DNA from: a virus
Reading direction: 5' to 3' (one strand)
Virus record (IMG/VR): IMGVR_UViG_3300042554_000709
Location: 1 to 36,843 of that record
DNA length: 36,843 nt
How positions within the stretch are numbered: the stretch's first letter is position 1; every line of letters starts with the position of its first letter. Both the position numbers and the translations under genes were made by a program. The notes beneath the pieces were generated by a model. That model had not been told where the DNA came from, did not search any database, and saw only the letters and a program-made list of their open reading frames with translations. Positions 9,880 to 19,423 of this stretch are shown piece after piece.

Positions 9880-10393
9880 GGCCGACGAACAACGCCCGCC
9901 CCTGTGTGTCGGTTGTCACCGTGTGCCGTTGGAAGCGTCTAGCCACGGCGTCCTGCGACAAGCTCGAAAGTTGCTCCCAGTCATGTATCGCCAGGATGCT
10001 GGTGATGCCGGCCGCCGTCAGGTACTCGGGCAGCACAGCATCGCCGTGGGCTGCGTCGTGAAAGATCAAATCCCACCGATCGAGATGCAGGTGGCAATCC
10101 CGCAGGAACCGCCCGGCGTCATCGGCCACCGGCTGAATGTTTGCCACGCCAAGAGTTTCCCAATACGCCACGCGGCTTGCCTCGGGCATCGTGTCGCAGA
10201 GATCGACGCTCACGATAGTGGACTCAGGGGCGGCGATTGCCATGGCGGCCGTCGAGATCCCGGCATGGCTGCCGAGCTCGAGCACGCGCCACTCCCGGCC
10301 CTGCACGATCTCGCACAGTTCGCCGATGTGATCGCGGGCCGTGGTCATCTGGTGCGAGCAGTCCACCGTTGCCAGGTACTCTTGCCAGGTCAT
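9872..10393 (-). CDS. Class I SAM-dependent methyltransferase
   Basis: 173 residues. Motif I is clear (RVLELGSHAGISTAAMA, about residues 36-52), followed by an acidic residue after strand 2 (IVSVDLCD) and motif IV (WDLIFHDAAHGD). This matches the Methyltransf_24 type, which often modifies sugars or small molecules. Its coupling to two glycosyltransferases suggests sugar O-methylation on a glycan; DNA or protein methylation is less likely from the motif IV sequence. It overlaps the rusA stop (ATGA). Confidence 0.8.
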   Translation of the reverse strand: MTWQEYLATVDCSHQMTTARDHIGELCEIVQGREWRVLELGSHAGISTAAMAIAAPESTIVSVDLCDTMPEASRVAYWETLGVANIQPVADDAGRFLRDCHLHLDRWDLIFHDAAHGDAVLPEYLTAAGITSILAIHDWEQLSSLSQDAVARRFQRHTVTTDTQGRALFVGHA

Positions 10394-10902
10394 GTGATTC
10401 GCACCGTGGTGCGTGCCTCCGTGCCGTATGACTTCTCCACCACCAGGCGACTCACCTGCGTGTCATCTCCAAGGATCGGGCCGATTGCATCGAGCACCGC
10501 TTTCGCCAGGTTGTCCACGTCTGGCCGTGGCAGCTGCGGTGCGTCTGGCTTCACGCCAGACTTCCGCATGTGCGATTTCGGCCTGGCGAAGACGGCGTCG
10601 ATCACGACCGCCACGGGCAAGCCTTCGTTGCGCAGCCCGGCGTCGATGGCCGACATCTGGATCGAGTGGCGGTACGCATGCACCGGGTGCTTCTTTGGCA
10701 CGTACGCGCGAGCGAATCCGCCCGCAGTCGAGACGCGAGCTCGAGGCTGCGGCACAGGATCGCCGGGAACTGAAAACGTGATTGCGTTCATTGGCGTTGT
10801 CAGCCGCTCCAGCTCGTCAGCGGCCTCCGCGAGAAGCGCCGAGCGGTCGAGCGCACGACACGCCCTGACGCTCTCACGGAGGCGCTGAACGAGTTCGTGC
10901 AT
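10390..10902 (-). CDS. RusA-family Holliday junction resolvase with an extra N-terminal helix module
   Basis: 170 residues. The C-terminal 130 are RusA: FSVPGDPVPQPRARV, KHPVHAYRHSI, then the catalytic RPDVDNLAKAVLDA with its paired Asp residues and GDDTQVSRLVVEK. The first 38 residues (ELVQRLRES, LLAEAADELERL) match a small helical motif that recurs in the accessory proteins at 2.1-3.3 kb, so it looks like a fused module. Translation could instead begin at the internal ATG at 10791, but that has no good ribosome binding site. RusA resolves recombination intermediates and fits with the Bet protein upstream. Confidence 0.85.
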   Translation of the reverse strand: MHELVQRLRESVRACRALDRSALLAEAADELERLTTPMNAITFSVPGDPVPQPRARVSTAGGFARAYVPKKHPVHAYRHSIQMSAIDAGLRNEGLPVAVVIDAVFARPKSHMRKSGVKPDAPQLPRPDVDNLAKAVLDAIGPILGDDTQVSRLVVEKSYGTEARTTVRIT

Positions 10903-11207
10903 CACTCGTACCGGATCACTGCGAAATACGCCCGCCGCGTAGGCGAGTACGCCACGCCACGCTCAACGATTCGGTAGCGGCCGTAGAAGCAGCAGTTTCT
11001 CATCGCCTGGTCGGGGGTGCTGCCCATGCCGATCCCTTCACGGCGGCCACCAGCACGGCCGCAGTGGCGAAGAACTCCGGTGCGCGCCATCTCCTCGGCG
11101 TCATCCTGAGCCGACGAGATCACAACACGGCGGGCGTAGATGTTCGTGGTGTCGGCAAGGGCCGGCACGGCGAACGCCAAGGCGAGCAGGCAAACAATCG
11201 AACGCAT
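10902..11207 (-). CDS. Small secreted protein with signal peptide
   Basis: 101 residues from the ATG at 11207, with AGGAGG nine bases upstream. The N-terminus is a Sec signal peptide (MRSIVCLLALAFAVPALA, cleavage after ALA). The mature part contains Cys residues (HCGRAGGRREG, MRNCCFYGRYR) and would lie in the periplasm or be secreted. No family is recognised. The ribosome binding site abuts a stable hairpin (11218-11249), suggesting translational control. A role in exclusion or envelope modification is possible. Confidence 0.7.
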   Translation of the reverse strand: MRSIVCLLALAFAVPALADTTNIYARRVVISSAQDDAEEMARTGVLRHCGRAGGRREGIGMGSTPDQAMRNCCFYGRYRIVERGVAYSPTRRAYFAVIRYE

Positions 11208-11588: not shown

Positions 11589-12692
11589 TCACTCCGCTGC
11601 CATGGGCATGACCACGCCCGTGTGGCAATCCGTACGCAGGATGACCGCCGACTGCCCATCCTTCGCTTGGACGCTCACAGTGGGCTCGCCGTCCGGCGGC
11701 AGCCCTTCAAGCCACTGCCGCACGTAACGCGGGTCCAACTTCACGGTGCACGCCGTGCCGGCCTCCACGAGATCGCACGTCACGCTCGACTCTCCGGCCT
11801 CGCTCGACTGCCCGTGGAGCCACAGCCCCTTGTCAGAGAAGGCAAAGTCGATGCCCCGGCTGGCCTCAGTCGTGACGATCGCCGCCGCCTTGACGCTGGC
11901 CAGCAGCTGCTCGGCAAGCACAGTGGTGGGCTCGCAGTCCAGATCCGGCACCACGTCGCGCCACCGGGGGAATCGGCCTTCAATCAGCCGGGCCGTGACG
12001 GTCGCACTGCCCACCGTGGCAACGATTTCTTTGGCCGTCGCCTCGAGCTGCACGGAACCGTCCGAGTCAGCCATGGCCAGCCGCGACAGGATCGCCATGA
12101 CACGGCTAGGCACCAGAGTCTGCGAGTCATCAACCGCCAGGTCGTGCTCGCACTCCACGAGCGAGAGCCGCCGGCCGTCCGTTGCCACGAAGCTGACCGT
12201 CTCGCCCTTCACCTCGATGAGCACGGCGCCCAAGGCGAACCTGCTGGAGTCATCATCGGTGGCGAACACCACGCCACGCACGGCGCGGCAGAACTGGTCA
12301 GCCGGCAGCCGTGTCACCGGCTTCGCATCGGCCGGCTCCCACATGGGGTATTCCGCCGCCGACTCCGTTGGAAGCGTCCAGGTGCCCGAGCCCGCCCGCA
12401 CTACGCAAGACGTGTCGCCAGGCTGCAGCGTCACCTTGTCGCCAGTGGCGGCCCCGAGGATCTGCGAGAGCCTGCCATGCGGCAGCAAAATCGCATCCCC
12501 GTGGTAGTCCACGGTCACGTCGATGCGCACTTCGCCGTCCGAGCCTGTCAGCAGGCCGTCGCCCAGACGCACGGCCTGGTAGATCGGCTTCGGTGCTCGA
12601 GTTGGCACGGCTGGCGAGACTGCGGCCAACGCCGCCTTCAGGCCGGCAGACGCCAGTTCAATTCCGGTTCTCTTCTTCGTTGCGGTTGCCAT
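11589..12692 (-). CDS. dnaN: DNA polymerase III sliding clamp (beta subunit)
   Basis: 367 residues, the full length of a bacterial beta clamp with three repeated domains. Diagnostic segments are RFALGAVLIEVKG and FVATDGRRLSLVE in domain 2, LIEGRFPRWRDVVP before domain 3, and the C-terminal VVMPM that lines the clamp-binding pocket in host DnaN. The ATG has AAGGGAA upstream. No polymerase or clamp loader is seen in the window, so this clamp presumably works with host polymerase III and may redirect it to phage DNA (inference). Confidence 0.95.
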   Translation of the reverse strand: MATATKKRTGIELASAGLKAALAAVSPAVPTRAPKPIYQAVRLGDGLLTGSDGEVRIDVTVDYHGDAILLPHGRLSQILGAATGDKVTLQPGDTSCVVRAGSGTWTLPTESAAEYPMWEPADAKPVTRLPADQFCRAVRGVVFATDDDSSRFALGAVLIEVKGETVSFVATDGRRLSLVECEHDLAVDDSQTLVPSRVMAILSRLAMADSDGSVQLEATAKEIVATVGSATVTARLIEGRFPRWRDVVPDLDCEPTTVLAEQLLASVKAAAIVTTEASRGIDFAFSDKGLWLHGQSSEAGESSVTCDLVEAGTACTVKLDPRYVRQWLEGLPPDGEPTVSVQAKDGQSAVILRTDCHTGVVMPMAAE

Positions 12693-12801: not shown

Positions 12802-13037
12802 GCCGCACCCCCTTTTTGTGAGCCGAAGGCGGCCCTTCGCATCAGCTCGTAGTCGAGCTCCAGCCGCTCGTTGCGGGCCACCAGGCGGCCGTTGTGACGC
12901 AGCAGCTGCTCGATGGTGTCGGCGCACCACTCGTGGTACATCCGCGAGTCGTCGTCGATGCTGTCAGCCCATGCGTGGATGCGAAGCATATGCACGAGCA
13001 CGCTTGGTGCCGGCGGTGGGTACGGGTTGTCGCTCAT
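12798..13037 (-). CDS. Hypothetical protein with Pro-rich start
   Basis: 79 residues starting MSDNPYPPPAPSVLVHML. The C-terminal half is helical and charged (DTIEQLLRHNGRLVARNERL, ELMRRAAFGSQKG), possibly a coiled coil. The start overlaps the stop of the LexA-like gene (ATGA) and its own stop overlaps the membrane-protein start (GTGA). Function is unknown. Confidence 0.6.
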   Translation of the reverse strand: MSDNPYPPPAPSVLVHMLRIHAWADSIDDDSRMYHEWCADTIEQLLRHNGRLVARNERLELDYELMRRAAFGSQKGGAA

Positions 13038-13255
13038 GCCACCACCTCGATTCCACGGGTGATGCCTGGGCGGCGCTTGATAAAGCCCTTCTTCTCCAAC
13101 GCACGCAGATGAGCCACTACGCCGTTTGGCGAGCGGATGCCGAACTCGGCTGCGATCTCTCGTACGGCGGGGCCGTACATGCCAGAGTTCGCGCGGATGA
13201 ACTCGAGCACTTCGGCTTGGCGTGCGGTCAACGGTCGTGGTGTTTGCGTGGTCAT
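13034..13255 (-). CDS. Stand-alone LexA-type DNA-binding domain
   Basis: 73 residues from the ATG at 13255, with GGAGG five bases upstream. It aligns end to end with the winged-HTH N-terminal domain of LexA: LTARQAEVLEFIRAN, REIAAEFGIRSPNGVVAHL, RALEKKGFIKRRPGITRGI. The autoproteolytic peptidase domain is absent, so it cannot be cleaved by RecA in the usual way. It may bind LexA-like operators in the phage or host, either as a constitutive repressor or as a competitor of host LexA (inference). Confidence 0.85.
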   Translation of the reverse strand: MTTQTPRPLTARQAEVLEFIRANSGMYGPAVREIAAEFGIRSPNGVVAHLRALEKKGFIKRRPGITRGIEVVA

Positions 13256-14127
13256 GTGTCCTCCGTGAGTTTCACTGCAGCCGCAAGCGCGGCGACTTCC
13301 TTGGGCGTGCGGTATGGGGCTGGCCTGTACTGATCCTTCCAAGCCTGCGGCTTCGGCTTGTCGTCTGGCCTGACTCCAGGCGTACGGTTTGTGCCGCCCT
13401 TGTCTTGGGAACGTGTGAGCCACGAAACAAGGAACCGCCGCCAGTTCGACTTCTTCGCCTTGGTGGGGTTAGCCAAGAGCCAGGCCGTAGCCTTGGCGAG
13501 CTCTTGGTCGAGTTCGCACGCAGGGAACGCTTGAGCCCACTGCTCGCGGTCCACGGGCGTGATGCCCTGCCATCCTGACGAAACATCCCAGCGGACGGCG
13601 TCGTGGGGCTGCGAGCGTTTCCGCCGCTTCGGCGGATCGCTCGTAGCAACAACCGGCGCAGCCGGTTGTATGTCTTCTGCGCTAGCAGAAGACTCTGTAT
13701 TTGACGTTGACGTTGACGTTGACGTTGGATGGCATGCGTTTGCGATGCGTTTGCTATGCGTTTGCGATGCGTTTGCTATGCGTGACGCATCGCCAGACCA
13801 CCTCCCAGACGCCGCAGAACGCGCAGCCTGTGATCTCTTCTCGCGGATCTCAACGCATCTAGTGCGGTGCTCTTCCAGCTTGGCGTTCCGCCTAGTCCCG
13901 TCATCGCACACCGGGAACTTTCCAACCAGCACGGACCAGCACTTGCAGACTCCGGGCGACAGCCGTTCGAGGTCGTTGGACTCAGCAGGCAGGGATCCGC
14001 GATCCCACTGGATCATCAGCAGTGTGAGGTAGTGCCCTCGCTCCTCAGCAGTCCATCCAATTGTGCTTGTCAGGAAGTCCCTGACGTACAGAGGGAGGTA
14101 CACGTCAACGCGAGTGTCAGCCGACAT
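13252..14127 (-). CDS. DUF1376-type phage replication initiation/primosome protein
   Basis: 291 residues. The N-terminal DUF1376 domain is clear (VDVYLPLYVRDFLTSTIGWT, then HYLTLLMIQWDRGSLP). A low-complexity linker with TSTSTSTSNT and RIANASQTHSKRIANA follows, encoded by two sets of tandem DNA repeats. The C-terminal region resembles helicase-loader or DnaT-like tails (WRRFLVSWLTRSQDKGG). Proteins of this type start phage replication. The embedded repeats may be origin iterons, as in lambda gene O. The ribosome binding site is weak (GAGGG ten bases upstream). Confidence 0.8.
   Translation of the reverse strand: MSADTRVDVYLPLYVRDFLTSTIGWTAEERGHYLTLLMIQWDRGSLPAESNDLERLSPGVCKCWSVLVGKFPVCDDGTRRNAKLEEHRTRCVEIREKRSQAARSAASGRWSGDASRIANASQTHSKRIANACHPTSTSTSTSNTESSASAEDIQPAAPVVATSDPPKRRKRSQPHDAVRWDVSSGWQGITPVDREQWAQAFPACELDQELAKATAWLLANPTKAKKSNWRRFLVSWLTRSQDKGGTNRTPGVRPDDKPKPQAWKDQYRPAPYRTPKEVAALAAAVKLTEDT
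13701..13724. repeat. Tandem hexamer repeat, 4 copies
   Basis: Four exact copies of TTGACG in the linker of the replication gene, encoding the Thr-Ser repeat. It lies 11 bp from a second, 11-bp repeat array. Confidence 0.9.
13736..13779. repeat. Four 11-bp iteron-like repeats (candidate replication origin)
   Basis: Four consecutive copies of GCGTTTGC(G/T)AT, alternating G and T at position 9, so also two exact 22-bp units; a degenerate fifth (GCGTGACGCAT) follows. Because 11 is not a multiple of three, the repeat is conserved at DNA level while its reading frame changes, which favours a DNA-binding role over a protein repeat. Confidence 0.7.
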
Positions 14128-14829: not shown

Positions 14830-15696
14830 TCAGACGAGCGCCGGAGTTTTCGGCGTGTTCTTCCTGAGCTGGGACCAATCGCAATATGCCTGCTCAAACA
14901 ATGCTGGCGACCTGTGGCCCAAGTGCAGACGGCCAGCACCAGGGCGTTCCATCTCGCAGTGCGTCGCGCCGCTTCGGCGCAGCCACTTTGACGAGCCGCC
15001 AACGCCAACGCCGTCAAGCAGCTGCCGCATGTGCCTCATGGCCATGCGCCTCCCGCAGGCCCATCCGAGGATCGTGCCGTTTGGTGACGCCGCCAGCATC
15101 CCGTCGATTGAGTCCAGACAGGCCGGCGTCAGCGGCCGCGACAGAGGATCGCCTGTTTTTGATTGCGTCCATGACAGCGTGTCGCCGTCCAGATGCTCGC
15201 GGCTGAACGACATAACGTCGCCAAATCGAGCACCGCACTCGTAGGCCAGCAGCACCCAGCAGCGGAGAAAAAGCCCAAGGTCTGCGCCAGACCGCAGCCG
15301 CCGGCCGTCGTGTTGTTTGGTGGCCTCAATCAGCAGCCGCAGCTGCTCAATCGTCCAGGCCTTTGTCGGCTTCTTGCGGGCCTTTACACGCATTACTCCG
15401 CGTGGGGCCTCGTCAATCAGGCCTGTTTCGTAAGCCCAGCAGTACAGCGTCAGCAGGATCGTGCGTTCTGAACGCACGGTCGTGCTCTCAAGCTGCTGAG
15501 CCCTATCCCGCAAGTACGCGTTCACACGCTCTACGCTGATTCGTCCGCATCGCTCCGCGATCCTCAGCACGTTGCTCGCGTAATTCCGAGAAACGATCCG
15601 CTCAGCCAAGTACCTGTCAGCAACGCCCTTAAAGTTGAGGATTGCGTCCGCCGTTGCGTCTGCGACGCGACAGGCGAGGTTCTTTCTTCGTGCCAT
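14830..15696 (-). CDS. Tyrosine recombinase (second, leftward)
   Basis: 288 residues. The catalytic set is nearly complete: R157 in CGARFGDVM, K180 in TQSKTG, R240 in KWLRRSG, H261 in LGHRSP and Y271 in EQAYCDW. The HxxR motif reads KxxR (K237). The N-terminal core-binding region is helical (YLAERIVSRNYASNVLRIAE). AAGGGAAG precedes the ATG. It sits in the recombination block, not beside the rightward integrase. It could be the integrase proper, or a Xer-like resolvase or inversion enzyme. Confidence 0.9.
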   Translation of the reverse strand: MARRKNLACRVADATADAILNFKGVADRYLAERIVSRNYASNVLRIAERCGRISVERVNAYLRDRAQQLESTTVRSERTILLTLYCWAYETGLIDEAPRGVMRVKARKKPTKAWTIEQLRLLIEATKQHDGRRLRSGADLGLFLRCWVLLAYECGARFGDVMSFSREHLDGDTLSWTQSKTGDPLSRPLTPACLDSIDGMLAASPNGTILGWACGRRMAMRHMRQLLDGVGVGGSSKWLRRSGATHCEMERPGAGRLHLGHRSPALFEQAYCDWSQLRKNTPKTPALV

Positions 15697-18400: not shown

Positions 18401-18479
18401 ACCACGCAATTTGCCCCAGCCCTCCGACCGCCCATACGATCGGTTGGCAAAGGTCAATGTTTGAGTGGAGGCGGCTCCC

Positions 18480-18507
18480 CTTACAGGGTTGTATACTGGT
18501 GTACACT
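18480..18507 (+). promoter_or_regulatory. Integrase promoter with GTATAC/GTGTAC operator
   Basis: Plus strand CTTACA (18480-18485), 16-bp spacer, TACACT (18502-18507). The near-palindrome GTATAC-TGGT-GTACAC (18491-18506) overlaps the -10, and its right half GTGTACAC is itself palindromic. Same layout as the leftward promoters. The rest of 18401-18479 holds no gene. Confidence 0.6.
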
Positions 18508-18529
18508 TACGCGCCAAAGGAGAGGCAGC

Positions 18530-19423
18530 ATGGAACCTATGAAGTTGGCGGAACTGTTTGAACGATACGGCGATCTGCGGAACCTCGACGCCAAGACCAT
18601 GAGGCTGTACGGCATGCTCCTAGAACGCCTGCGAGCGTTTCTGGGACACGAGCCCACAGTGGCCGACCTAGATGACCTGGTCATCAGTCGCTACCTCAGG
18701 GACCGTGCCACGCAGTCCTGCCGTGGGAAGCAGGTGCGGCCGGCCACAGTCCAGAAGGACAAGGTGATGATCCAGGCTGCGTGGAATCTGGCAGCCCGCA
18801 AGCGATGGGCGGCAGAGTTCCCAGAGCTTCCCAGGATCAAGGTGGCCAAGAGCCTGCCAACGGGCCGGGCCTACACGGCTGATGACGTGGCCAAACTCGT
18901 GAGACGGGCGCGGCTCCGCAAGGGCAGCACAGGTGGCAAGCCGTCGTGCTGGTGGTGGTCTACGCTGATCTACATGGCGTACTGCTCGGGAGAGCGCCTG
19001 TCGGCCTTGCTCGCCCTACGGTGGCGTGAGGTGGATCTGGTGCGGCGGCGCGTCCGGTTTCTCGGCGACACCCGCAAGGGCCGCACGCACGACATCGAGC
19101 GGGACTTCACCCAGCAGCTGGCTGACATACTGGCGTCTCGAGAGGGAAAGCCTGACGAACTGGTGTGGCCATGGGACCGACAGCAGGCCAGCCTGTGGAC
19201 GAGCCTTCAACTGCTTTGCCGGCTGGCCGACGTGAAATACCGAGGCTTCCACGGGCTGCGGAGGACGCGGGCTTCCTACGCTGCCCTGGCCGGAGGAACC
19301 GCTGCGGCCACCCAGGTGCTCGACCACAGCGACCCGAAGCTTCAAGAACGATACGTCGATTCAGCGATTTGCCCCAGCGAACAGAGCAGCGTAGACGTGA
19401 TGCCGCCACTCGACATCGGATAA
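18530..19423 (+). CDS. int: Tyrosine integrase (rightward)
   Basis: 297 residues from the ATG at 18530, with AAGGAGAGG just upstream; an in-frame TTG at 18461 lies before the promoter and is rejected. All catalytic residues are present: R156 in CSGERLSAL, K183 in TRKGRT, H241 and R244 in HGLRRTR, H266 in LDHSDP and Y275 in QERYVD. The N-terminal half is a SAM-like core-binding domain. It is the only rightward gene, divergent from the HTH gene and convergent with the late operon. This isolated place beside a regulator is typical of a phage integrase. Confidence 0.95.
   Translation: MEPMKLAELFERYGDLRNLDAKTMRLYGMLLERLRAFLGHEPTVADLDDLVISRYLRDRATQSCRGKQVRPATVQKDKVMIQAAWNLAARKRWAAEFPELPRIKVAKSLPTGRAYTADDVAKLVRRARLRKGSTGGKPSCWWWSTLIYMAYCSGERLSALLALRWREVDLVRRRVRFLGDTRKGRTHDIERDFTQQLADILASREGKPDELVWPWDRQQASLWTSLQLLCRLADVKYRGFHGLRRTRASYAALAGGTAAATQVLDHSDPKLQERYVDSAICPSEQSSVDVMPPLDIG

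Follow-up and report, generated by a model that had tools for sequence, protein, structure and literature searches.

A probable phage replication origin with 11-bp iterons inside the gene of a DUF1376 initiator

Some phages carry the origin of replication inside the gene for the protein that binds it. The Rep proteins of the lactococcal phages Tuc2009 and TP901-1 bind repeats within their own genes, and these repeats serve as ori (PMC8965321). Similarly, gp38 of phage SPP1 binds oriL, which lies inside gene 38 and consists of direct repeats and an AT-rich region (PMC6316719), although SPP1 differs from the locus described here in its second origin and its AT-rich tract and is likened to it by description rather than by sequence. 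In lambda the origin lies in the middle of the initiator gene O, where iterons, a low-complexity tract and an inverted repeat follow one another. The E. coli Rac prophage encodes YdaU, a protein with a DUF1376 domain whose C-terminus resembles replication protein O of Gifsy phages, and the gene after ydaU encodes YdaV, a putative ATP-binding protein. In the open-access literature we found no published work on DUF1376 origins.

Here, we analyze the 36,843-bp IMG/VR virus contig IMGVR_UViG_3300042554_000709 (the window; all coordinates are those of this record) and report two tandem repeat arrays and three hairpins within a gene of the DUF1376 type (Table 1). Comparative sequence evidence leads us to conclude that positions 13612-13791 most probably constitute a phage replication origin inside the gene of its own initiator. 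This putative origin is of the lambda O/Tuc2009 kind in its functional class, an origin inside an initiator gene, and its protein is not a lambda O homologue. As far as open-access papers show, such an origin is new for the DUF1376 family.

Table 1. Features of the candidate origin, its gene and the neighboring genes in the window
Feature	Position	Strand	Remarks
DUF1376-type initiator gene, 291 aa	13252-14127	-	N-terminal helical domain, presumably disordered linker, C-terminal domain
Coding part, presumed DNA-binding domain, aa 8-122	13762-14106	-	AlphaFold2; long helix runs up to the array
Coding part, C-terminal domain, aa 179-242	13402-13593	-	AlphaFold2; on at least four other N-modules in relatives
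Candidate origin: iterons, 6-bp tract, three hairpins; aa 113-172	13612-13791	-	Synonymously frozen 180-bp block
Iteron array, (A/C)GCAAACGCAT x4 + partial fifth, 11-bp spacing	13734-13783	-	TRF, 4.5 copies
6-bp repeat tract, TTGACG x4.5 (coding AACGTC)	13701-13727	-	TRF, 100%
Inverted repeat 1, GTCTTCTGC-TAGC-GCAGAAGAC on coding strand	13672-13693		Perfect 9-bp arms
Inverted repeat 2, ACAACCGGC-TGC-GCCGGTTGT on coding strand	13649-13669		Perfect 9-bp arms
Inverted repeat 3, CGAGCG ... TCCGCCGAAGCGGCGGA ... CGCTCG	13612-13643		Third hairpin
RusA gene	10390-10905		Close to the phage sliding clamp gene
DnaN-like DNA polymerase sliding clamp	11589-12692	-	PF02767, PHROG 947; few genes downstream of initiator
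Short gene with LexA DNA-binding domain	13034-13255	-	Directly downstream of initiator
Tyrosine recombinase/integrase gene	14830-15696	-	Upstream of initiator; PHROG 1 'integrase', without Pfam match
Tyrosine recombinase/integrase gene	18461-19423	+

The initiator gene and its linker repeats

The window protein matches the DUF1376 profile (PF07120) in its N-terminal domain, at 29.7 bits (E 8.4e-7; cut-off 30.1) in a protein profile search and at 31.3 bits, above the cut-off, in a six-frame search. It also matches PHROG 3992, 'primosomal protein' (E 1.9e-10). No match to the protein was found by tblastn in named phages or by a sequence-profile search of the PDB, and a scan of genome contigs returned no confirmed match. 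Genes for RecT, RusA and a sliding clamp lie near the initiator; the scanned ORFs of the window yielded no recognisable gene for a helicase or a loader.

In the AlphaFold2 model, residues 8-122 are mostly confident, residues 127-166 have pLDDT<50, and residues 179-242 are again confident. The N-terminal domain is helical and ends in a long helix (about aa 82-122) along which confidence drops toward the end. The iterons encode the tail of this helix together with the first part of the linker; the 6-bp tract and first hairpins encode the low-confidence linker, which is presumably disordered. Viral structure matches of the N-terminal domain are to DUF1376, 'Replication protein' and Lin1244/Lin1753-like N-terminal domains. 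A fold search of the PDB gave no significant match, with MarR-type, DtxR-type and ORC2 winged helices among the top entries (all E > 0.5); assignment of the domain to the winged helices is tentative.

Both repeat arrays sit in the linker and are the top-scoring arrays of the 36.8-kb record in TRF, with no other array of similar strength. A preliminary description, made from the sequence, had placed 6-bp and 11-bp tandem repeats in this linker; we find both, at 4.5 copies each and beyond the reach of shuffles. The span given there, 13701-13779, has the right start, and the array runs 4 nt past its end, to 13783. On the coding strand the 11-bp units read AGCAAACGCAT or CGCAAACGCAT, beginning at 13734, 13745, 13756 and 13767, and the 22-bp period is 100% in TRF. 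Run scores are 28, 27 and 21 at lags 22, 11 and 6. When the whole window was dinucleotide-shuffled 20 times, scores did not go above 13, and in 20,000 rounds of synonymous-codon shuffling the gene never reached any of the three lag scores. An 11-bp period is not divisible by three, and the units are therefore read in three frames.

The 6-bp repeats behave differently among relatives, where AACGTC is freely exchanged for CCAACA, CCA, CACCTT or AGAAG repeats. Because their sequence is not kept, they are more likely to be a low-complexity spacer or unwinding tract than protein-binding sites, and this comparison speaks against the earlier proposal that they too are iterons. The tract region has 44-48% GC, against about 62% for the record, and is not A-rich, unlike that of lambda. 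The instability of its DNA ranks at the 97.3-99.0 percentile of the record in windows of 50-100 bp.

Synonymous conservation and hairpins

To compare synonymous positions, ten near homologues were codon-aligned and codon identity was counted wherever two of them share a residue. Shared-residue codon identity is 94.0% in the block encoding residues 113-172 versus 56.9% in the remainder of the gene (0 of 20,000 permutations). The preliminary description had held that the 11-bp unit is kept at the DNA level through changing frames, and the three reading frames together with the frozen synonymous sites bear this out.

Three consecutive hairpins (13612-13693), the first and second back to back, stand on the other side of the 6-bp tract, away from the iterons; the preliminary description had not noticed them. 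Folded as DNA, the 89-nt hairpin strand reaches -36.6 kcal/mol (z -9.6). Among relatives, three pairs of hairpin 1 are altered on both sides and hairpin 2 has one compensatory pair; together the two hairpins covary, with 12 double-change cells versus 3.9 after shuffling (0 of 500 shuffles) and 0-2 with slid partners. Twelve of the 13 pairs of hairpin 3 are invariant, and this hairpin is therefore uninformative on covariation. Hairpin 2 is kept as ACCTGC-TGC-GCAGGT in a locus (L032) whose N-terminal domain has been swapped. We rejected the hairpin tract as a universal part of such loci, as group-B genes have no tract or something different in its place. Given the synonymous freezing and the paired hairpin changes, the alignments indicate that the block is kept as DNA (or RNA), not merely as protein.

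These observations bear on two other explanations. The repeats might be a product of slippage in a disordered linker, harmless at the protein level and without DNA function, as the predicted disorder and the microsatellite-like appearance of the 6-bp, CCA and CCAACA tracts would allow. However, the 11-bp period rotates the reading frame while the spacing holds at multiples of 11, synonymous sites are 94% frozen, the hairpins covary, and out-of-frame arrays, but not in-frame 12-bp arrays, concentrate in initiators; we consider slippage highly improbable. A second explanation, compatible with origin function, concerns the hairpins and not the iterons: they may work at the RNA level, terminating or attenuating transcription, for instance that of antisense transcripts. 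The two perfect inverted repeats have terminator-like scores on the + strand, which is antisense to the gene, but their T-tails are weak, an Rfam search found no match, and the hairpins stand immediately behind the iterons, where the lambda origin has its 28-nt inverted repeat. An RNA role is thus conceivable, though we lean against it.

Arrays in relatives and in other initiators

We collected 80 DUF1376 loci from IMG/VR, reduced to 62 non-redundant ones. In 55 of the 62, the top tandem array of the entire locus falls within the DUF1376 gene, where 9.1 would be expected from gene length. GCAAACG recurs every 11 bp in one DUF1376 clade, and GCATATGCG-like units recur at 12-bp intervals in another. 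In the corresponding part of the gene, Moraxella and Pseudomonas phages have AACGACCGTTC units, a Methylophilaceae phage has CAACGGGCGTT units and a Bordetella phage has CAAC-type units. Several group-B relatives (e.g. L065, L066, L084, L086 and L094) show weak repeats or single dyads only. In one gene that is otherwise a typical DUF1376 gene (L050), a GGTACC-rich array (CAAACGGTACC) replaces the plain GCAAACG array in the linker.

Spacing is the more constant property. Successive GCAAACG copies, counted in loci not selected for arrays, lie 11 (73 times), 22 (17 times), 33 (7 times) or 44 bp (twice) apart with few exceptions, and 11 and 22 are not multiples of three. Linker autocorrelation over 19 divergent clusters is strongest at lag 11 (z 13.4), followed by lags 22 and 33; a control coding region also has a mild lag-11 signal (z 3.8), which probably comes from alpha-helix coding.

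A scan of IMG/VR with the DNA pattern alone retrieved the same class of genes. Three GCAAACG copies at 11-bp spacing occur in 69 stretches, against about 0.03 expected for uniform composition, and in 61 of these a long ORF runs through the array. DUF1376 accounts for 28 of the ORFs. A further 29 long ORFs were scanned; at least 22 of them match DnaD-like loaders, and others match 'replication initiation' families. A spacing unique to 11 bp was ruled out, as 10- and 12-bp spacings were also found. At 10 bp there are 28 stretches, and 21 of the 23 ORFs scanned are DUF6291, 19 of them matching the YdaU 'primosomal' family. At 12 bp, which is in frame, there are 23 stretches, and the ORFs are mixed: initiators occur alongside low-complexity runs, an Erf protein and a capsid protein. 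A concentration in initiators is seen for out-of-frame arrays only. The sole stretch that aligns between the DUF1376 and DUF6291 profiles (DUF6291 ORFs, e.g. L270) is the helix just before the array (aa 87-110 of the window protein, KRSxAxxxAxxRW), which may be part of the DNA-binding surface.

About eight of the 69 arrays at 11-bp spacing lie in no long ORF, and the array is therefore not tied to a gene. Loci L177, L195, L204, L210 and L214 have such arrays without a long ORF across them, possibly representing origins or control sites outside initiator genes.

Repeats of 11-12 bp are also typical of centromeres of the ParR and TubR type, and the array could accordingly be a centromere-like partition site bound by such a protein. 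The scan of window ORFs revealed no gene recognisable as parM, tubZ or parA-like, and the array accompanies replication initiators across families, leaving a partition site very unlikely.

Across 73 genes, iteron content tracks the N-terminus rather than the C-terminus of the protein. Pairs with a similar N-terminus and a different C-terminus share iteron 6-mers in 31% of cases, versus 5.0% for pairs with a similar C-terminus and a different N-terminus and 4.8% for unrelated pairs; in a partial Mantel test, 0 of 2000 permutations reached the observed value. Proximity could contribute to this linkage because the array sits between the two protein parts, but the contrast is still large. When the C-terminal half served as the query, this domain turned up behind at least four further types of N-terminal module (L100, L120, L134 and L155), which match PHROG 'replication initiation protein' families. 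Several of them bring repeats of their own: L032 and L120 have GTCACG clusters, and L137-L139 and their relatives have a CCGGGAAGTCCAACGAYGGAG-like unit of 21 bp. A suspicion by eye that the L134 or L155 modules are homologues of Tuc2009 Rep found no support in BLASTP. When ydaU is compared with its 613R10 counterpart in E. coli Rac prophages, the DNA similarity begins at ydaU nt 485, just behind the repeats. The presumed binding domain and its iterons are seen, in sequence comparison, to be exchanged together, also between sister Rac prophages of E. coli.

This exchange is relevant to the LexA-type protein encoded just downstream of the initiator, for which the array might be the binding site. 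The adjoining position of its gene speaks for such a role, but L032, in which by eye an open frame with a similar start directly follows the initiator, has lost the GCAAACG iterons along with the DUF1376 domain, and many iteron-bearing loci are only distantly related phages. We judge a LexA-type site to be very unlikely.

Comparison with known origins and a proposed mechanism

As positive controls, lambda O, Tuc2009 rep and TP901-1 rep were put through the same test for arrays, and each time the best array fell inside the initiator gene. Tuc2009 and TP901-1 resemble the window in having direct repeats in the initiator gene, with the best locus array at gene nt 312-416, and the Tuc2009 CAACCA repeats start at gene nt 342, 353, 364 and 375, at the same 11-bp spacing as in the window. 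Their repeat sequence is different, the same search found no hairpin tract, and Tuc2009 Rep, like TP901-1 Rep a DnaD-like replisome organizer, has no sequence similarity to the window protein (best BLASTP E 2.6).

The preliminary description had drawn its analogy to lambda, and the layout agrees: the elements come in the same order and at nearly equal gene positions (349-433, 436-475 and 477-504 in lambda; 345-393, 401-427 and 435-516 in the window). The analogy does not extend to the iterons, which in lambda are 18-nt dyads starting 20-24 bp apart and in the window are 11-bp units at 11-bp spacing, as in Tuc2009. Lambda also differs in its A-rich tract; the proteins have no sequence similarity (best BLASTP E 0.86) and the window protein no O-type profile match, and a P-like loader was not recognised among the window ORFs scanned.

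E. coli K-12 ydaU (L098:6479-6550) carries TGTTCA in its linker at gene nt 360, 393 and 426, a spacing of 33 bp or 3 x 11. Unlike the array of the window this one is weak, its score being reached by 83 of 3000 shuffles. The TGTTCA repeats are a candidate for the Rac origin oriJ; in open-access papers we found no statement on whether oriJ lies in ydaU.

GC skew had been suggested as a check, with a minimum elsewhere in the genome counting against the array as origin. When run, it was uninformative. With almost all genes on a single strand, the cumulative curve drops through to the record end, third-position skew has no switch, and a displaced minimum does not apply cleanly as a refutation; we set skew aside as an origin locator since it tracks gene strand and carries no origin signal.

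Plasmid iterons often have control roles, and the array could instead be an autoregulatory or copy-control site that limits the gene's own transcription or titrates the initiator, with the origin elsewhere. The occurrence of some GCAAACG arrays outside long ORFs is in keeping with such a site. Against it, the array lies mid-gene, about 340 nt past the start and thus in a poor place for an operator, the record has no other array of comparable strength, and the Tuc2009 and lambda arrays at equal gene position are origins. We regard a pure control site as rather improbable.

The preliminary proposal that the array is an ori inside the initiator gene is thus supported by comparative evidence, and we favor the origin because of the synonymous freezing, the position of the best array in 55 of 62 loci, the co-inheritance of iterons with the N-terminal domain, the retrieval of initiators by DNA pattern alone and the positive controls. 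It is very likely, on this evidence, that the DUF1376 initiator binds the iterons.

In the model we propose, the DUF1376 protein binds the 11-bp iterons through its N-terminal domain, and their spacing of one helical turn would place protein copies side by side on one face of the DNA. The bound complex would then open the adjacent, less stable 6-bp tract, and the hairpins, once single-stranded, may position helicase or primase loading, the weakest step of the model. With a disordered linker, the gene would be able to accommodate an array that shifts the reading frame from unit to unit. Replisome recruitment is probably the role of the C-terminal domain, as we propose because DUF1376 genes of other phages adjoin a DnaC-type loader or DnaB-type helicase gene.

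More broadly, there is perhaps an even chance that DUF1376, DUF6291 and DnaD-like phage proteins form one broad initiator class. Its members would have a linker origin of out-of-frame iterons one helical turn apart, often with a GCAAACG core common across families, and a DNA-binding domain that is swapped, iterons included, as one cassette while the C-terminal module stays constant; next to a covarying hairpin tract, the initiator would form a polymer on one face of the DNA with a unit at every turn. If the origin is as proposed, DUF1376, a large family of 'unknown function' that includes E. coli YdaU, would acquire a function together with a defined DNA site, and in many uncultured phages the origin could be recognised from sequence by a 10-11-bp array lying out of frame in the initiator's linker.
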